This document shows positions 5,523 to 43,323 of a stretch of DNA of 64,000 nt, in pieces. The first letter of the stretch is position 1. Every line of letters starts with the position of its first letter. Source of the stretch: Flavobacteriia bacterium (lineage in GTDB: Bacteria; Bacteroidota; Bacteroidia; Flavobacteriales_D; Crocinitomicaceae). The position numbers were made by a program, and so were the translations under genes. The DNA lies in contig JAPLEV010000006.1 of assembly GCA_026391005.1 (NCBI GenBank), forward strand, positions 1 to 64,000, in the 5' to 3' direction. The notes beneath the pieces were generated by a model. The model ran no database searches, was not told the origin of the DNA, and was given only the letters and a program-made list of their open reading frames with translations.

Positions 5523-5620
5523 ACAATATGATATTTTAATTGCAAAGTTAGTTTATTTACCAACCTTTCAAGTTTTAAACGCTTAAAATTAAATTTTGTT
5601 CGTAAAGTAAACTTAAAAAT

Positions 5621-6082
5621 CTATTCGTTTTCAGAAACTGTTTTCAATAGAAAGAGTGGCTTTAAAGTAAACCAAGCCAAAAGTGGAAAAAATAGAATGG
5701 GCATTAAAAACCCTTTATAAAAGTCAACAAAAAGCTGTGCGTCTGGGGTTTTGAAAACTGGGTCTTTCATTTTTAACACGTAAAAAACGAATGCTATAGT
5801 TGCTATACTAAAGAATAATCCGGATAAAAGATCCGCAAGGATTCCTTTTTTATGCAAAATCCATTTTAGCAAATAATGTATCATTGACATTATTCCCGCT
5901 GCAAAAAAACAATTTTTATAAAAAACTATAAAAATAATCCACTTGCTTAACCCTTCGCTAAAATCTACTATTAAACCAAAGTAAAAGGTCGCATAAAAAT
6001 AGCAGGCAAAGGCCGCTAAAAGAGCAGTAGAAAGACTGTGCATAACAATACGCGGGAAAATACTCTTAAGCCTCTTTTTCAT
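5621..6082 (-). CDS. Hypothetical membrane protein, about four transmembrane helices
   Basis: I do not recognise a family. The 153-residue protein begins with a basic stretch (MKKRLKSIFPR) and has four hydrophobic segments, at about 16-38, 46-72, 84-103 and 123-145. The loops are short, and one carries several acidic and basic residues (KMKDPVFKTPD). It sits between recO and the desaturase gene on the same strand, with 45 and 98 bases of spacing, so operon membership is possible but not certain. The start ATG follows an AT-rich stretch and no better start is seen. No function is proposed. Confidence 0.6.
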   Translation of the reverse strand: MKKRLKSIFPRIVMHSLSTALLAAFACYFYATFYFGLIVDFSEGLSKWIIFIVFYKNCFFAAGIMSMIHYLLKWILHKKGILADLLSGLFFSIATIAFVFYVLKMKDPVFKTPDAQLFVDFYKGFLMPILFFPLLAWFTLKPLFLLKTVSENE

Positions 6083-6127
6083 TTTTATTTGTTTTTCTTA
6101 TTACAAATTTAGAAAAAAATAGACCAC

Positions 6128-6814
6128 TTACGAATAAAGCACTTCCCGTATTATAGATAGGGACCTTGTGTTATCGAAAGATGGTAAATGAATTCGCATG
6201 TACAACAAAATATCACCCAAGGCCTGCTTTTGAATATCGCTTTCCGGAGCGACAAGTGTTGAAAAAAGAATGTTAAGGTACTTAGCAACAGGTCCATTGC
6301 GCACATATTCAGTTTCGAGCATCTCAAGAGAAAAACATCCCGTTTTTAAGTTGAAAGCCGTAGCATTCAAGGCCGTTTGTGGAGTAAATCCTAGGTGTAT
6401 TATTAATTTTGCGGCGAACTCAAGCGGGAATTCTTTTATGCGATTGGTGTCGTTTAATTCTTTTGCGGCCGTCAATAAAAAGAAAAACATTGCTTTGTCA
6501 GCTTGTTCCTCTTTTAATGTTTGTCGCAAAATATCACTCACAAAAAAACTAATAAGCATTTTTGCGGGGTGACTTGCAGAGGACAAATACGGGGTGGCTA
6601 TTTCTAACGAATTGATCATTCCTAAATCACTTTCTGGCCTTTTATATGATACAATTTCATAATGTCCGAAGACTAAAAACGGTGTTTTTTTCTTTTTCCC
6701 TCCCTTATAAATATACTTTGACAAGCCACTCGATTGGGTATAAAAAGTCAAGATTAGACTGCTTTCAGAATAATTTGTTTTAAATAATAGTAGGCCGTTA
6801 TCAGTGTTTTTCAT
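6128..6814 (-). CDS. recO: DNA repair protein RecO
   Basis: The 228 residues match RecO, which works with RecF and RecR to load RecA onto SSB-coated single-stranded DNA and anneals strands. The N-terminal OB fold is visible: GLLLFKTNYSESSLILTFYT, then SGLSKYIYKGGKKKK and PFLVFGHYEIVSYKR. The C-terminal helical part contains LEFAAKLIIHLGFTP and LKTGCFSLEM. The four-cysteine zinc finger of some RecO proteins is absent, as in many Bacteroidota. The gene is divergent from the T9SS cargo gene at 6891, with 76 bases between the starts. Confidence 0.9.
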   Translation of the reverse strand: MKNTDNGLLLFKTNYSESSLILTFYTQSSGLSKYIYKGGKKKKTPFLVFGHYEIVSYKRPESDLGMINSLEIATPYLSSASHPAKMLISFFVSDILRQTLKEEQADKAMFFFLLTAAKELNDTNRIKEFPLEFAAKLIIHLGFTPQTALNATAFNLKTGCFSLEMLETEYVRNGPVAKYLNILFSTLVAPESDIQKQALGDILLYMRIHLPSFDNTRSLSIIREVLYS

Positions 6815-6890: not shown

Positions 6891-8837
6891 ATGAAAAAGC
6901 AACTCCTTCTATTTGCCCTGTTCCTCTCGCCCTTCTATTTTTTTACGCAATCTTATTCATATGACAATGCTGTATTAAGCGAGGCTACGATTAATGAAAA
7001 TGACACTGTCATCACCATTAAATGGCAGAGTTCTTGGGGGGCTACCCAATATAATTTATATCGAAAACTCTATGGCGGTTTAAGTTGGGGTTCTCCAATT
7101 GCTAACCTTGGCCCTTTGGAATTATTCTATGGGGATAGTAATGTAGTCGCTAACCAATTATATGAATATCGTATTATGCGTGTTGGTTCAACCGGCACCG
7201 CTTATGGCTATTTGGTCTCTGGGATTAACACTCAAATTCCATATAACAAAGGAACAATGATTTTGATAATTGACGACTACTTTTTACCCGATTTACAAAA
7301 TGAGATTGCTGAATTAATTTTAGATATTGAAGCAGATGGTTGGTTTGTTCAACAACAACTGGTAAATCGTAATAACAGTGTTTCACAAGTAAAATCAATC
7401 ATTCAAGGGGTTTATAATAGCGATCCCGTTGCAACGAACGGCTTGTTTTTGTTAGGACATGTTCCTGTGCCCTATTCCGGCGATATTAACCCGGATGGTC
7501 ACCCAGACCATTTAGGCGCGTGGCCTGCAGATGTCTATTATGCGGATATTGATGGGACAAGGAACGATGTTAGTGTAAACGATGCTAGTGCTTCCGACCC
7601 AAGACAGCACAATATTCCTGGTGACGGAAAATTTGACGAGTCTATACTGCCCTCTGATGTAGAATTAGAGGTTGCGCGCGTTGATTTTTATAATCTTCCT
7701 GCATTTTCAAACACAGAAACAATGTTAATGCAAAGCTATCTTGGCAAACTACACGCGTTCAAGACTAGGCAATATATTCCGAGGGATATTGCGATCGTTG
7801 AGGATAATTTTTTAGGATTTGCAGAAGGATTTGCAGGCTCGGCCTACGCAAGTTTTTCTCCGAATGTTGGGATAGATTCTATTGTTAATGGAGATTATAC
7901 AAGTGAATTACTAAACAATAATTATTTATGGGCGTATGGAACAGGTGGTGGTTGGTATAGTGGCGCATCAGGAATCGTTACTACAAACGATTTTGCTGTA
8001 AATAATTATAAGAGCACTTTTTCGATGTTATTTGGCAGTTATTTCGGCGATTGGGACAGTGCGGATAATTTAATGCGCGCTAATTTAGCTAGCGGAAAAA
8101 CGCTAAGCTGTTCTTGGTCAGGAAGGCCTTATATTTATTACCATCCTTTAGCGATGGGCGAAGAATTAGGATATTGTATTCAAAAAGCACAGAATAACAA
8201 TTCGACTTATTTTTCCTCCACTTTAAACACCTTCAAAAGATGGATTCATATTACCCAATTAGGAGATCCAAGCTTAAGGTCAAGGTATATTTCGCCTCCG
8301 AGCAACCTGACTTGTTCCACCAATGCCAATGGCACGATTCAGTTGACATGGGTACCGTCTTCCGAAACTGTAATTGGTTATGCTATCTATCGTAGGGAAC
8401 CAAACATAAACTTTTGGACCTTAGTTGATCCTGCGATAATTAGTGGGACAACTTATAATGACAATAGCATCGTAAACGGAGGGGCATTTATTTATATGGT
8501 TAGAGCAGTAGACACCTTAAGAACTGCTAGTGGGAAATACTATAATCAAAGCCTAGGAACCATTGGAAGTGGAAATTCTAATGTGCAAACACCAATTATT
8601 TCAATGAATAAATACGTTCACATTTATCCTAATCCAACGAATGACTTTACCTCAATCTTAGTGCCTCAGCTATTGATTGGTAAGGAATATAAAATCTTAA
8701 ATTTAATGGGTAAAGAAATTGAAAGCAGCGCGATTGAATCGCTTGTCCATAAAATTAACTTGCGGCAGTATTCCCAGGGCATTTACCTCATCTATATTGA
8801 AGGACTGGAGTCCTCAATAAAGATTATTAAGAATTAG
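6891..8837 (+). CDS. T9SS-secreted protein with gingipain (C25)-like core, FN3-like domains and type A sorting domain
   Basis: The 648-residue protein has a Sec signal peptide (1 to about 20), an FN3-like domain (about 35-115), a large alpha/beta core (about 118-465), a second FN3-like domain (about 470-560, with IQLTWVPSSETVIGYAIYRR) and a T9SS type A tail (about 572-648, IYPNPTNDF). The core resembles peptidase C25 (gingipain-like) domains in its order of elements: ILIIDDYF, LLGHVPVPYSG, PADVYYADIDG, then the two segments that normally hold the catalytic His and Cys, and GDPSLR. By eye, the GHG segment reads YGTGG (Thr351) and the catalytic Cys position reads GSYFGDWD (Ser383), so it may be a non-catalytic relative. 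Its stop is directly followed by the stop of the convergent AsmA-like gene. The T9SS tail is certain; the C25 relationship is my inference. Confidence 0.8.
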   Translation: MKKQLLLFALFLSPFYFFTQSYSYDNAVLSEATINENDTVITIKWQSSWGATQYNLYRKLYGGLSWGSPIANLGPLELFYGDSNVVANQLYEYRIMRVGSTGTAYGYLVSGINTQIPYNKGTMILIIDDYFLPDLQNEIAELILDIEADGWFVQQQLVNRNNSVSQVKSIIQGVYNSDPVATNGLFLLGHVPVPYSGDINPDGHPDHLGAWPADVYYADIDGTRNDVSVNDASASDPRQHNIPGDGKFDESILPSDVELEVARVDFYNLPAFSNTETMLMQSYLGKLHAFKTRQYIPRDIAIVEDNFLGFAEGFAGSAYASFSPNVGIDSIVNGDYTSELLNNNYLWAYGTGGGWYSGASGIVTTNDFAVNNYKSTFSMLFGSYFGDWDSADNLMRANLASGKTLSCSWSGRPYIYYHPLAMGEELGYCIQKAQNNNSTYFSSTLNTFKRWIHITQLGDPSLRSRYISPPSNLTCSTNANGTIQLTWVPSSETVIGYAIYRREPNINFWTLVDPAIISGTTYNDNSIVNGGAFIYMVRAVDTLRTASGKYYNQSLGTIGSGNSNVQTPIISMNKYVHIYPNPTNDFTSILVPQLLIGKEYKILNLMGKEIESSAIESLVHKINLRQYSQGIYLIYIEGLESSIKIIKN

Positions 8838-11552
8838 TTACTTACCCTTCGATTTGCCGACAACAATTACATCCTCATTATCTTCATCCTGTTGCCCCTT
8901 CCATTTTTGAAGGTTTTTCTTAATCTTAGGGTCTTTGTTCGGTTTTTCATCTTTTATGGGATTGTTTTCGGGTGCTTTATCTCCCTTGATTTTAGGGTTA
9001 AAATTAATTTTGATTTCCTCTTTGGGGATTTCTTTAGGAGTATATCCTTGAACCGTCGAATCTTTTTTAAATAATCCAAACTCCGTTTTTAAAATCTCTT
9101 TTACTTCCTGTTTTTCCTCTTGAATGGTTATTTTAAACTGTTCATTTTTTGCTTTTTTATCCCATTCAATTGTGGGATCTTCGAGCGCCCCATACATCCT
9201 CATAAAAACACGAAATCCAGTTTCATCATCTATTATCTCACCAAATTCGGTGTGTTTCGCTTTTTGCTTTATATCCCTTAAACTGAATGCAAAACGATAA
9301 TCAATTATATTTTCAAATGAATGTATCCCAGAAATGTCCATTTCCATCGCCGAAGACACTATTTTCATCTTGGGAATCTTAATCGTGCCGTTACTAATCA
9401 CAATTGTATTTTCAAGTGTTTCAAATGATAAATCTTTTAATTTCTTTTCAAATTCATCTATATTGGTGTTCCCTAATAAAAGCTTTCCTGATTTACTTCT
9501 CATACTTGAAACAATATATTTAAAAGACTCCACGTTTTTTAAATGGCCGTTATTCACCTTTAATGCTAGGGTTGATTGAATTCCTTTCAGCACGACCCCT
9601 GACCTCAAATCAAAAGGAGCTTTAAAGTCGAGATTTCCTTCTGCGTTTCCCGTTATATTATGATCTGTTATTACTGATTGTTCGAAATTATTCCACTCTT
9701 TGAAAAGTGGCTTAATGTGAAGGTTTTTGGTAAATACCGCTGCGCTTAAATAGAACATTTCGGGGGTGTTTTCTGTGATAGCTAAAGACCCTGACAACTC
9801 TGAACCCGCGCTTGAGCAAGTTATTTGAGGGAAATTTAAGCGCCTACCGTTTATTTGTAAAAGGCCGGACAAATTACTAAATGTATGCTTTTCATATATT
9901 AACTGTCCGACTTTCAGGTCTATCGTTGCCTTAATATTTTCAGGTAAAGCATAAATCCTTTCTCCATTAATTTTTTGAGATTTAGTAGTTGAACCCAAAT
10001 CTCCTATATTGGTTGTATTACTATTTAAAATAATGTTCGCGTTCAAGACCCCCTTGCCACTTAAATAATTAAATATATTTCGAAATGATCCATTTATTTT
10101 TAAATCAGTATCATTTATTTTTAAAGTAGTAGACTCTATTCCTAATTCGCTCCCCATTAAGGATATTCTTCCATTAATCTGGTCAAATGTGCGCTTATCG
10201 TTCTCCATTTTTAGATGAATATTGGATAATTGAATTGCTCCTGAGCAGTCTTGAACACTAAATACTTCTTTTGATTGTTTTAATAAAAACGATGTATTGA
10301 TATTGACTCGTCCCAAAATTTTGTCAATTAACGGAAATCTAAATATTCCGTCGGCAATGCGAAGATCAACACTTCCGTTAGCCTTGCCTTGGAAAGTCGG
10401 GTTTTTAAAGTTTTTAATTATTAAGTCACCGCTAAATGGTCCCCCAGCAGTTTTAAAGTTCACCCGCTCTAATTTTAAATACTCTTCTTCTGCCCCTCCT
10501 TCGTTACTATAATTTCCAACTAAAGATATATCACTGGCCTTGAGGTTATTCGTTGGTTCGGTTAAACTTCCTTGCTTAATGCCGAAATTGCAATTAACTT
10601 TCATGGGGGCGCTTGAGGTAATAGATCCGTTTAAATTCAAATTAAAATAAACCTCACCATCGCCTTTAAATTTTTTAAGGTTGTTATCCTCATCTAGGGA
10701 AAGCTCATTTGCTAAGTCTGTCAGTAATATGTTTTTTGATTGTATAGAAAGTAATAAGCTATCTCTTGTTGCGCTTCCATCAATTAAAAACGGGAGCCCC
10801 TCAATATTAATTTGAGCTTTTGGTAGTTTTATTGTCCCTAGTTTATTGTTAACCGTAATGTCAATCTTAAAATTTGCTTTTTTATTTGCTAATAAAACCA
10901 CTTGGCTACTTTTTAAGTGATTTATAAACAAACTGCATTCAGCATTCAAGGTATAATTTTCATCGCTGAAATTCCCTGATAAATGTGACTGTTGAATTGT
11001 CGTTTTATAGTGTTGAAAGGTGGCCCCATTGTAATAGGAAAGTCTAAGATTATCGATTAAAATGTGTTTTAATTTTAAATTTAGGGTAGATTTCGCTTCT
11101 GATTTGGATGGCTTAACTATATCATAGTTTGAATCACCTGCTTCATTTGATTTAAGTTTTAATACGCCGCTTGAAATCTCAATGTTTTTAATGTCATATT
11201 TTTCATTCCAAAGATCCATCGGATTGAATTGCATTCTGATATTCTTGGCAAACAGCATCGTATCAGAAATGTTTCCTGTGGATAATTTGTCATGGATATA
11301 GACATCCTTCAAATCAACAGAAATAGTGGGGAAACTTCCCCAAAAAACCAAATCTACATCGGCAACATTAATGGGCTCAATTAATTGATTATTTACCTCA
11401 TCTAAAACTAATTTACAAATATGGTCTTGAAAAAAATAAAGTGTAGCCGAAATTGATAAAATAATTCCCATAACGATCCCACAAAACCATTTAAGAACTT
11501 TAATTGATTTGTGCTGCTTGTTTGCTTGCGGTTTTATATCCGTTTCCTCCAT
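8838..11552 (-). CDS. AsmA-like family membrane protein
   Basis: The 904-residue protein has a short cytoplasmic N-terminus, one transmembrane segment at about 21-43 (VLKWFCGIVMGIILSISAT) and a very long periplasmic beta-rich region. This begins with the AsmA-type segment LVLDEVNNQLIEPINVADVDL and continues with repeated strands and an AsmA_2-like C-terminal part (KLLLGNTNIDEFEKKL; IVSSAMEMDISGIHSF). Such proteins are bridge-like lipid carriers or outer-membrane assembly factors. The last 80 residues are unusual, rich in Lys, Pro, Glu and Asp, and end in VIVVGKSKGK. The gene stands alone and its stop abuts that of the convergent T9SS cargo gene. The role in envelope lipid traffic is inferred from the family. 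Confidence 0.85.
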   Translation of the reverse strand: MEETDIKPQANKQHKSIKVLKWFCGIVMGIILSISATLYFFQDHICKLVLDEVNNQLIEPINVADVDLVFWGSFPTISVDLKDVYIHDKLSTGNISDTMLFAKNIRMQFNPMDLWNEKYDIKNIEISSGVLKLKSNEAGDSNYDIVKPSKSEAKSTLNLKLKHILIDNLRLSYYNGATFQHYKTTIQQSHLSGNFSDENYTLNAECSLFINHLKSSQVVLLANKKANFKIDITVNNKLGTIKLPKAQINIEGLPFLIDGSATRDSLLLSIQSKNILLTDLANELSLDEDNNLKKFKGDGEVYFNLNLNGSITSSAPMKVNCNFGIKQGSLTEPTNNLKASDISLVGNYSNEGGAEEEYLKLERVNFKTAGGPFSGDLIIKNFKNPTFQGKANGSVDLRIADGIFRFPLIDKILGRVNINTSFLLKQSKEVFSVQDCSGAIQLSNIHLKMENDKRTFDQINGRISLMGSELGIESTTLKINDTDLKINGSFRNIFNYLSGKGVLNANIILNSNTTNIGDLGSTTKSQKINGERIYALPENIKATIDLKVGQLIYEKHTFSNLSGLLQINGRRLNFPQITCSSAGSELSGSLAITENTPEMFYLSAAVFTKNLHIKPLFKEWNNFEQSVITDHNITGNAEGNLDFKAPFDLRSGVVLKGIQSTLALKVNNGHLKNVESFKYIVSSMRSKSGKLLLGNTNIDEFEKKLKDLSFETLENTIVISNGTIKIPKMKIVSSAMEMDISGIHSFENIIDYRFAFSLRDIKQKAKHTEFGEIIDDETGFRVFMRMYGALEDPTIEWDKKAKNEQFKITIQEEKQEVKEILKTEFGLFKKDSTVQGYTPKEIPKEEIKINFNPKIKGDKAPENNPIKDEKPNKDPKIKKNLQKWKGQQDEDNEDVIVVGKSKGK

Positions 11553-19543: not shown

Positions 19544-20296
19544 ATGAAAAAAACTTTACTTTGTTTAATGCTTGTTGCATTTGGTACTTATAATGCATCA
19601 GCGCAATCTTGTACTCCTGGTGTGAATTTTCAAGATTCATCCTTTGGTGTTTGGCCAGACACCACACAAAATTTGCCTTGGGCGACTGCTAATGTTGCTT
19701 ATTCAACGGATTTAAACTTCAAGGTTCCTTCTACAGTAACAGTTGATTTAGATCCTTCTGGACAATTTGTTGGTTCTGCCATACAAAGCTTTACGGTAAC
19801 GAATGTTGCGGGTTTGCCTGCTGGATATAACTACGTTTGTAACAACAATTGCACCTACAATGGAGGCGCTAATGGATGTGCTAATGTATATGGAATTAGT
19901 GGTGTAAACGGAACGTATCCCATTACCATTGAAATTGACGCAACTGTTTTAATTGTTCTTTTTCCAGGTTTGCCTCCTACCCCTGTTACCCAACCGGCTT
20001 CCTTCGGTGGATATAAAATCATTATTGGTACAGCTGGGATAATTGAAGGAATTATTGCCCCATTAACAATTCATCCGAACCCATCTAATGGCATTATTAA
20101 TATCAAAGGGATTACTGAATCTATGAATGCTTCGGCTGTTTCTATTAGTAATCTTGAAGGAAAGGTTATTTCTCAGAAACAATTAAACGGTTCAACAACT
20201 TGTTCTTTTGATTTAACTGGAATAAACGCTGGTATTTACTTCGCTTCAGTAAGTTATGAAGGCGGTATTGAAAACATTAAATTTATTGTAGAATAA
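19544..20296 (+). CDS. Small T9SS-secreted protein with type A sorting domain
   Basis: The 250-residue protein has a Sec signal peptide ending near ASAQ (residue 21), a central beta-rich region of about 145 residues with a cysteine-rich loop (NYVCNNNCTYNGG, NGCANVYG) and a T9SS type A sorting domain from about 176 (LTIHPNPSNGIINIKG) to the end (GIYFASVSYEGG). It should be exported through the outer membrane and fixed to the cell surface or released. The central region has no domain I can name. A -7 box lies 27 bases upstream and a strong hairpin terminator follows, so it is a one-gene transcript. Confidence 0.85.
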   Translation: MKKTLLCLMLVAFGTYNASAQSCTPGVNFQDSSFGVWPDTTQNLPWATANVAYSTDLNFKVPSTVTVDLDPSGQFVGSAIQSFTVTNVAGLPAGYNYVCNNNCTYNGGANGCANVYGISGVNGTYPITIEIDATVLIVLFPGLPPTPVTQPASFGGYKIIIGTAGIIEGIIAPLTIHPNPSNGIINIKGITESMNASAVSISNLEGKVISQKQLNGSTTCSFDLTGINAGIYFASVSYEGGIENIKFIVE

Positions 20297-23597: not shown

Positions 23598-24347
23598 ATG
23601 AAAAAATTAGTACTATTATTATTTCTTTCCTTATTCGGTGGGCTTACCGCTCAAGACGGAATAAGCATAATGATCGACGGCCAAACTACAGAGCTTTCTG
23701 GAGGAGTTTACACTGTGGTTGCAGCATCTAACCTAACCTTTGATGTTCCATTTGATGTATTCAACACCACTGGTCAATCTCATCAATGGCGAGTTACTAG
23801 AAAGAAAGTTTCAGTCGGTGCTGGATGGACAGATGGCTTATGTTGGGGTCATGGAACCGATCCTTTTGGAGGCACCTGTTTTTCTTCTGGTCAAATGAAC
23901 ACTAATCCTTGGACAACCCCGGGTAGCGTTGGCGTTTTATTTACAATAAACGATGGTGAATATGGAAAGATGAAGGCTTCTATAGATCCCGAAGACTTAA
24001 GCACATCAACTTCTCATTACAGGTATTATATTTCTGACGATGGGGTAAATTATACTGACTCTGTTGATTTAATCGTCGATTTTACGGCAGCTATAAAAGC
24101 CATTAAAGAGCCATTTTCGGTTACAATTGCGCCAAATCCCGCATCAGATTACCTAACAATAACGCCCAATAATACAGATCCTGTTACAATTAAAATGTCG
24201 GATATATTAGGTAACCTTATTTTAAAAGAAACGATATATTCAACAAAAAAAATAGATGTTTCTGATATTAAAAGCGGAGTCTATATCCTTAGCTTTGAAG
24301 GATCTGGGATGAAATCTTTTAGTAGAAAAGTAATTGTTCGACACTAA
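23598..24347 (+). CDS. Small T9SS-secreted protein with type A sorting domain
   Basis: The 249-residue protein has a Sec signal peptide (to about 18, GGLTAQDG), a beta-rich middle of about 145 residues (QWRVTRKKVSVGAGWTDGLCWG; SHYRYYISDDGVNYTDSV) and a T9SS type A tail from about 176 (VTIAPNPASDYLTITPN) to the end (SFSRKVIVRH). The middle resembles small immunoglobulin-like T9SS cargo, but I cannot name a domain. A -7 box 21 bases upstream and the separate neighbours suggest a single-gene transcript. It should be surface-exposed or released. Confidence 0.83.
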   Translation: MKKLVLLLFLSLFGGLTAQDGISIMIDGQTTELSGGVYTVVAASNLTFDVPFDVFNTTGQSHQWRVTRKKVSVGAGWTDGLCWGHGTDPFGGTCFSSGQMNTNPWTTPGSVGVLFTINDGEYGKMKASIDPEDLSTSTSHYRYYISDDGVNYTDSVDLIVDFTAAIKAIKEPFSVTIAPNPASDYLTITPNNTDPVTIKMSDILGNLILKETIYSTKKIDVSDIKSGVYILSFEGSGMKSFSRKVIVRH

Positions 24348-41934: not shown

Positions 41935-43323
41935 CTAAATGATTTCAATTCGGATAACGGAACTTGACCAATCAAATAAATAATCCAAATACCTCAGCTC
42001 TATCAAGTAAATACCCGCGGCCATTCCCATTGTTAGTTCTACGAAGGTGTTGTTTCCTGATCTACCATTTTGAATTTCTTTTCCCTGAACATCGCAGACA
42101 GTATATTGAAAATCTTTTATAAAATCATTTGGTGAACGAATAACAACGCTTTGTCCGGATAATGTGGGGTTTGGATAGGCTGTGAAATTGTCCAAATCAC
42201 TTTGGTTTTCAAAGAATGGACGATCAAACTTAAATAAAAACAAGCCATTATTTCGATCAGAAACTAGTATTCTATCACTTTTATATAAAGCATAAACTCC
42301 CCACGCACCCCACATCGTGAAATTGGTGGCGTCTGGCAATAAATACGTATCATATGCCGCAATTTCCCCCGGCGGATTCATGCGTAAGTCATAAATGCGC
42401 AAACCAGCATTATAATAGGAAACAAAGGCTAAATTGTTCGTTATTTGAACATTGTGAGCTGTTAATTCCGCGTTAGAATTACTTGTTCCAAAAAATTGAG
42501 AAGGCGTTATGGTCCAATCATCGGCAACAGTGCATTTTTTTATTTTCAACCCTTGTGTTTCATCAGTGAATACATAAGTTTTCTTATTGGGAGAAAGCCA
42601 ACCTTGGTGATTATATCCTTGTTGATTGTAAAATGCGAGACTATTTAGGTACGTTGGTGATGACGGCTGGGTAAAGTCATACACACGGATGCCATCGTAG
42701 CCGCAGTTCATAATCGCTATATTATCGCGGACATAAATATCATGCACCTCCTGAATGTCATTTGGGCCTTGCCACAACAACGTTGGATTAATGGGATCTG
42801 TTAGCGAGAAAACACAAAGGGGAATCATGGATAAATTTATCCCTGCAACAATCGGCGTTACCATACACATATACAACAAAGCCTCCGTCGAGTCAATAAA
42901 TAAATTGTGAGTCCGCCCAAATAAATTGTTTTGTAAATCAGCGACAAGGACAACTGAATCGGGCATAAACGCCATGTCTATGATCTGCAAACTACTTGGG
43001 CCTTCATCACAAACAGCATAAATATAATGTTGATAGAACTTGTACTCTCTAGTGATAGCCATTGAGGAGCTGTACTTCCCTTTAATAAACCCTACCAGGT
43101 TTAGTTGGTTATCCGATGTTAATTCAAAAAAGTGGGAGCCCTCTGTTGATCCTATGACAGCATATTCTTTATTGTTAAATTCAAATCCCCAACAACTGCT
43201 GTATCGAACATTAGTGGAATTAGTTAAAAGGGTATCTTCACTCCACTGGTCCAATAACTGAATGTTTTTGATGTCCTGAGCCAATCCTGTAAAACCAATG
43301 AAAAACAGAAAGATAAATCGCAT
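41935..43323 (-). CDS. Choice-of-anchor B family protein with T9SS sorting domain
   Basis: The 462-residue protein has a short signal peptide (to about 15, GFTGLAQ), a beta-propeller-like body with LVIP-type repeats (HNLFIDSTEALLYMCM; HDIYVRDNIAIMNCGYDGIRVYDF; HNVQITNNLAFVSYYNAGLRIYDL) and a C-terminal T9SS-type tail from about 383 (FTAYPNPTLSGQSVV). Such proteins are secreted and surface-anchored, with unknown binding partners. It begins 7 bases downstream of the TrmH gene and its stop abuts nadD. Confidence 0.85.
   Translation of the reverse strand: MRFIFLFFIGFTGLAQDIKNIQLLDQWSEDTLLTNSTNVRYSSCWGFEFNNKEYAVIGSTEGSHFFELTSDNQLNLVGFIKGKYSSSMAITREYKFYQHYIYAVCDEGPSSLQIIDMAFMPDSVVLVADLQNNLFGRTHNLFIDSTEALLYMCMVTPIVAGINLSMIPLCVFSLTDPINPTLLWQGPNDIQEVHDIYVRDNIAIMNCGYDGIRVYDFTQPSSPTYLNSLAFYNQQGYNHQGWLSPNKKTYVFTDETQGLKIKKCTVADDWTITPSQFFGTSNSNAELTAHNVQITNNLAFVSYYNAGLRIYDLRMNPPGEIAAYDTYLLPDATNFTMWGAWGVYALYKSDRILVSDRNNGLFLFKFDRPFFENQSDLDNFTAYPNPTLSGQSVVIRSPNDFIKDFQYTVCDVQGKEIQNGRSGNNTFVELTMGMAAGIYLIELRYLDYLFDWSSSVIRIEII

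Follow-up and report, generated by a model that had tools for sequence, protein, structure and literature searches.

A gingipain-fold protein family with an apparently replaced His/Cys dyad and newly conserved residues

The gene and its predicted fold

The forward strand of the window, which is the whole stretch of 64,000 nucleotides analysed from a Flavobacteriia bacterium (contig JAPLEV010000006.1), carries an open reading frame that a first-pass annotation had read as a secreted, gingipain-like protein with both catalytic residues apparently replaced. The question raised by this locus is whether the product is a C25 relative at all and, if so, what has become of its active site. The features referred to below are the following, with positions in the window:

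6891-8837, + strand: open reading frame, 648 aa, ATG start
6891..6950, + strand: probable signal peptide, residues 1-20 (by eye: two Lys, then a hydrophobic stretch)
6951..7241, + strand: N-terminal beta-rich, FN3-like stretch, residues ~21-117 (by eye)
7242..8285, + strand: predicted gingipain (C25)-fold core, residues 118-465 (AlphaFold2, Foldseek, VIA-align)
7494..7511, + strand: PDGHPDH motif, Asp202 to His207 (conservation in the A2 alignment)
7941..7943, + strand: Thr351, at the C25 catalytic His position in the joint alignment; register uncertain (351-353)
8037..8039, + strand: Ser383, at the C25 catalytic Cys position (alignments)
8142..8144, + strand: His418, gained conserved residue (36/40 family rows)
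8289..8513, + strand: FN3-like domain after the core, residues 467-541 (phmmer; PF00041 below cut-off)
8622..8834, + strand: T9SS type A C-terminal sorting domain, residues 578-648 (TIGR04183)

The translation agrees with the reading frame and residues first given for it, with Thr351 in LWAYG-T-GGGW and Ser383 in MLFG-S-YFGDWD, and the segments W-Y-S-G-A-S-G and D-S-A-D-N-L-M are present as written there. The assignment to the T9SS proteins was likewise borne out, since the type A sorting domain at 578-648 scored 33.6 bits with TIGR04183 (cut-off 23) and 34.4 bits with PF18962 (cut-off 27). FN3-like domains had been proposed on both flanks of the core. This was weakly backed for the C-terminal flank, where residues 467-541 matched the titin FN3 chain 4o00_A (phmmer, E 5.4e-5) and PF00041 scored 19.7 bits at 468-510, below its cut-off of 25; the N-terminal stretch (~21-117) is FN3-like by eye and gave no match in any library, Pfam included. 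Asp82 and Tyr93 in this stretch are invariant among 40 full-length relatives. The G+C content at positions 7000-8999 of the window is 0.37-0.40, compared with 0.33-0.36 in the flanks, which together with the patchy presence of the gene would fit horizontal transfer.

No Pfam or NCBIfam model matched the core, PF01364 (Peptidase_C25) included, so that the profile search proposed earlier as a check gave no C25 match in the window protein itself. Among its relatives, PF01364 matched 15/32 at E values up to 1 and exceeded the cut-off in four of ten picked ones (L089, L016, L094, L013). A sequence search of the PDB with the profile of the A1 alignment (which omits the fragment L035) returned nothing relevant, the best hit being a lipoprotein at E 0.13, and a fold search was therefore needed. 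An AlphaFold2 model of the core was built on 83 sequences (pLDDT 94.9, pTM 0.94), and its best PDB match in Foldseek was RgpB 1cvr (E 1.1e-7). VIA-align superposed the model on RgpB 4ief_D (Z 25.3, rmsd 2.9, 284 residues), Kgp 4rbm (Z 25.3, rmsd 3.0, 292 residues), Kgp 6i9a (Z 25.0, rmsd 3.1, 294 residues) and RgpB 1cvr (Z 24.9, rmsd 3.1, 290 residues), spanning model residues 2 or 6 to 351; PorU 6za2 (Z 12.3) and separases (Z ~10) were much weaker matches. According to the model, the core has the gingipain (C25) fold with an N- and a C-terminal subdomain, and the C25-like core proposed for residues ~118-465 is upheld at Z ~25 to both RgpB and Kgp.

Catalytic positions and conserved residues

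The catalytic positions were located in a joint alignment of 94 sequences, comprising 40 of the available family rows, 51 C25 rows and three intermediates (L213, L214 and L217); the last are C25-like proteins from three genomes of a sample that represents the phylum of a Planctomycetota locus. Conservation within the family was counted in the A2 alignment of 83 rows, which omits L034, L035, L040 and L041 and includes 55 of the 80 loci kept from a scan of species genomes with the pattern FGSY[FLC]GD. For profile-profile comparison with C25, a local hhalign run covered just 126 columns of the N-terminal part, and full-length pairings were taken from runs with -mact 0 and -glob, the global run forcing an end-to-end alignment.

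In the joint alignment, residue 383 is Cys in 49/51 C25 rows (the other two being gaps) and in 3/3 intermediates, and Ser in 40/40 family rows. The C25 Cys was also paired with Ser383 by hhalign, as was the catalytic Cys of L213 in its alignment to the family HMM. In the model of a catalytic C25 protein (L152), the His is the first residue past its strand and the Cys the second past its own, and these offsets, carried over to the window model, give 352 as the His and 383 as the Cys position. As all four lines of evidence agree, the Cys position is firmly placed at Ser383, where the first-pass annotation had put it; the catalytic Cys that C25 members have at the end of strand H-beta-4 is thus absent, and the window protein has no Cys in residues 1-406. 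Ser383 is found in 83/83 A2 rows. Because the scan pattern itself selects this residue, the conservation of Ser383, Gly386 and Asp387 in scan-derived rows is circular, and the rows from other searches were therefore counted separately; Ser383 is present in 27/27 of those not found by the FGSY pattern. The Ser383 count of a larger set (58/62) was not used, as at least one of its Ser, that of L214, is a misalignment.

The His position is less sharply defined. Residue 351 is aligned with His in 49/51 C25 rows and 3/3 intermediates of the joint alignment, the family having mostly Cys there (27/40); in hhalign the C25 His falls on Gly352, and in the alignment of L213 to the family HMM its His falls on Gly353. 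The C25 His position in the window protein would thus be 351-353, differing by method, and the earlier placement of Thr351 at this site is kept by the joint alignment and shifted by one or two residues in the others. None of the three is His, so that the catalytic His at the end of strand H-beta-3 is absent in every register, and His does not occur anywhere in the window protein between residues 288 and 418. Among the A2 rows, His occurs at 350-354 in 0/83 and at 349 in 3/83; in a divergent member from Roseobacter, a pair of His lies a few residues beyond the catalytic position.

Thr351 is exceptional within the family. Cys is usual there (108/135 family rows), and Thr or Ala is found in the nearest relatives of the window protein in A2. 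Cys351 was considered as a displaced nucleophile and rejected as an essential residue of the window protein, given the Thr or Ala found there in this protein and its nearest relatives. In 26/108 rows having it, Cys351 is the sole Cys of the core, so no obvious disulfide partner is at hand. The flanking glycines are retained (Gly350 in 81/83 and Gly352 in 82/83 A2 rows). The catalytic His of RgpB is residue 211. PMC4357240 prints it as 221, beside Gly210 and Gly212, and describes the glycines next to it as touching the P1 residue.

Columns were scored as lost when a residue found in at least 90% of the 51 C25 rows was present in no more than 10% of the 40 family rows. Four columns (W, G, H and C) were obtained; of these, H and C alone are retained in 3/3 intermediates as well. 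Gained columns, fixed to at least 90% in the family, with that residue in no more than 10% of C25 rows and in no intermediate, numbered fifteen. They include His204 (family 40/40, C25 0/51, intermediates 0/3), Asp265 (family 40/40), Arg396 (36/40, with Glu in 42/51 C25 rows) and His418 (family 36/40, C25 0/51, intermediates 0/3), the last being replaced by Gln in 5/83 A2 rows. Asp202, His204 and His207 are found in 83/83 A2 rows, as are Asp226, Asp245 and Asp249, and Asp214 in 82/83. Asp202 and His207 are not clean gains, since one of the three intermediates also has both, and His207 is absent in the Roseobacter and Methylomagnum members. Other positions also vary in distant members (Lys or Glu for Asp387, Asn for Arg412 in some). 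Asp214, Arg263 and the GDP motif are common to the family and C25. A test for clustering of the conserved polar residues just past the core strands, at their C-terminal ends, gave no significant result (best P 0.11), and no clustering is therefore claimed. Judged from the alignments, the replacement of the dyad is family-wide and accompanied by new invariant residues, which goes beyond what was first noted for the single protein.

Ancestry, range and export

A tree was built without the catalytic columns (quick search, no bootstrap, midpoint root). In it, the family members make up a single clade (SH-aLRT 99); L213, then L214 with L217, branch just outside this clade, the branch joining L214 and L217 to the family having a support of 86. 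All three have His and Cys, and L213 and L214 both match the family HMM and exceed the PF01364 cut-off. With catalytic C25 sequences as its closest outer branches, the family probably lost the dyad once, in its common ancestor. Against six close relatives, dN/dS of the core is 0.054-0.089, with the most distant of them saturated at silent sites, and these ratios indicate that the family core is under strong purifying selection. Two further C25-type proteins, L155 (G070:C8:356-1351), lacking both catalytic residues, and L156 (G053:C45:292814-293812), lacking the Cys, are placed elsewhere in the tree, so catalytic residues have been lost in other parts of C25 too.

In the pattern scan, 577/578 matched stretches encode relatives. 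The best 80 of the 578 are mostly from Bacteroidota, with members from Planctomycetota (L111, L120), Kiritimatiellae (L103) and Verrucomicrobiales (L105). The family core occurs once in the genome of the window protein, the other matches there being to the C-terminal third. Members are present in 8/61 genomes of the genus (own included), and none was found in 15 other genomes of the order. The phylum sample has the family in 26/296 genomes, the own genome among them; in several there are two to four matches, and the ORFs of the matches listed are intact, without internal stops. In another sample, taken as the phylum of the Planctomycetota locus L111, 13/149 genomes match the family profile; two of the matches are catalytic relatives (L213, L214) and one is a divergent member (L212). 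Divergent members, annotated as hypothetical, are also encoded on plasmids of Methylomagnum, Roseobacter and Salipiger (plasmid search: 5 records, identity <60%). Two scans of viral contigs gave 3 and 5 pattern matches with no relative among them, and phage records gave no match. Among the papers listed in literature searches, none described the family in its title or displayed abstract. Most full-length relatives have ~115-150 residues ahead of the core and are extended past it by another domain; several carry large Ig or PKD-like additions, and L074, L079, L088, L090 and L113 are very long, with ~1,070-1,430 extra residues past the core.

The host genome encodes PorU (L144, NF033707 461.5 bits, cut-off 420) and has 108 matches to the T9SS sorting-domain model, 104 of them above cut-off; this genome-wide scan also recovered the sorting domain of the window protein at its place. 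PF01364 was matched there in two other places, namely PorU and the PorU2-like L152, and not in the window gene. Three further sorting-domain matches lie in the window (20069-20290, 24126-24341 and 41992-42180). A T9SS tail was detected in 26/40 scanned full-length relatives. In the Planctomycetota sample, the C-termini of L111, L120, L204, L207, L209, L219 and L225 consist of a Gly-rich part, Cys, a hydrophobic stretch and Arg; they resemble MYXO-CTERM and are mostly missed by the NCBIfam models, the MYXO-CTERM cut-off being passed by L111 alone (17 vs 15.85 bits) of four scanned. Judging by these tails, surface display seems to have been kept, with the sorting route differing among members. 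At L041 (Roseobacter denitrificans pTB2), a rhomboid protease gene (5620-6309, - strand) adjoins the family member; its product resembles rhombosortase at 27.1 bits with TIGR03902, far below the cut-off of 84, and no corresponding tag was seen at the C-terminus of the L041 family member.

The window gene is flanked by opposite-strand ORFs, which by eye encode RecO and an AsmA-like protein. Among 77 loci with flanks of up to 5 kb, no conserved functional neighbour was found in the 14 largest clusters, and the most widely shared neighbour cluster consists of opposite-strand ORFs inside the family gene. Neighbours resembling rpoN, polA and tyrS (by eye) were rejected as a functional link; they occur at 8-9 loci and were read as local synteny.

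Possible functions of a probably re-made cleft

On this evidence, the family core is quite likely a C25 domain that lost its dyad in the common ancestor and had its cleft re-tooled. That the window protein is not a working gingipain-type cysteine peptidase may be regarded as close to settled, and the earlier view of a C25 relative lacking the cysteine-peptidase dyad holds, with Ser383 for Cys and no His in any alignment register. With RgpB and Kgp (MEROPS C25, PF01364) the protein shares the two-part core fold (Z 24.9-25.3, rmsd 2.9-3.1, 284-294 residues), Asp214, Arg263, the GDP motif near the C-terminus of that fold, a putative Ig-like domain following the core and predicted T9SS export; it differs from both in having Ser383 for the catalytic Cys, Thr351 for the His (mostly Cys in relatives) and the new family invariants His204, Asp265, Arg396 and His418, and from RgpB in that no RgpB-type prodomain was found in it by any library match. 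PorU and the PorU2-like sortases (NF033707, NF052324) are also C25-like and present in the host genome, but L144 and L152 keep His and Cys, and PorU 6za2 reached a Z of just 12.3. The nearest catalytic relatives in the tree, L213, L214 and L217, likewise keep the dyad and, unlike the family, are without His204 and His418. Clan CD pseudo-peptidases and SERA5-type Ser-for-Cys proteins are similar in that the catalytic Cys was lost and the fold retained, but belong to other families and other lineages.

The window protein would be exported by the T9SS and left on the cell surface once PorU had cut off its tail. Its flanking beta domains would serve as spacers. Ser383 and the gained His, Asp and Arg would equip the old cleft for a different ligand or substrate. 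As to what the cleft does, we lean tentatively towards a new catalytic use, at close to an even chance, because the conserved set is charged or polar and holds across phyla. A doubtful but possible specific form of this is that a new active site arose in one ancestral step, from Ser383 with the gained His204/His418 and Asp/Arg or from a metal held by PDGHPDH, so that the family would be surface hydrolases or transferases of several phyla with host-specific sorting. Pure binding is a serious contender that still falls somewhat short of even: the cleft of a pseudo-peptidase would bind a peptide or glycan, or the protein would serve as an adhesin or scaffold on the surface, catalysis being absent in either case. 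The replacement of both dyad positions speaks for it, as does the lack of any visible canonical serine-hydrolase arrangement; several members carry the large Ig or PKD-like additions, and a precedent is given by SERA5, a papain-like protein whose Cys is replaced by Ser and for which PMC4671257 reports a non-enzymatic role. Yet His204, Asp265, Asp214, Arg263 and Ser383 are kept with enzyme-like strictness in distant members, which is suggestive only.

It is unlikely that Ser383 still acts as a peptidase nucleophile with a relocated His418, His204 or His207 as base. Ser383 is invariant (83/83 A2 rows), and the loss of the old His was accompanied by the gain of His418 and His204, but the old position has no His and we know of no serine peptidase on the gingipain fold. 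Improbable to a like degree is a metal-dependent hydrolase or metal binder using the PDGHPDH loop and nearby Asp; it draws on Asp202, His204, His207, Asp226, Asp245 and Asp249 (83/83) and Asp214 (82/83), and is weakened by the loss of His207 in the Roseobacter and Methylomagnum members. Since gingipains bind Ca2+ at three sites (PMC4357240), the role of some of these Asp may be confined to ligating Ca2+. That the protein is no C25 relative, or has its dyad elsewhere, would explain the missing PF01364 match and a local hhalign confined to the N-terminal half. This is nevertheless very improbable in view of Z ~25 against RgpB and Kgp across almost the entire core, the PF01364 matches of 15/32 relatives (E up to 1; above cut-off in 4/10 picked), the shared Asp214, Arg263 and GDP motif, and the lack of Cys in 1-406 and of His between 288 and 418. 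Least credible of all is a decaying gene that merely lost its active site: the patchy presence (8/61 genus genomes, own included) would suit it, but it is in effect refuted by residues invariant across phyla and a dN/dS of 0.054-0.089, and the matches listed are intact ORFs with no internal stops.

Members above the PF01364 cut-off (4/10 picked) would be automatically annotated as gingipain-type cysteine peptidases, although the dyad is missing from the aligned members. The family offers a clear example of a single change of active site on an enzyme fold, with the catalytic relatives, the swap and the gained residues all traceable in sequence, and Ser383, His204 and His418 make the question of catalysis or binding directly testable. 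If the new site is catalytic, its chemistry would, to our knowledge, be new to the caspase/gingipain fold; if it is not, the proteins would constitute a broad family of surface pseudo-proteases.
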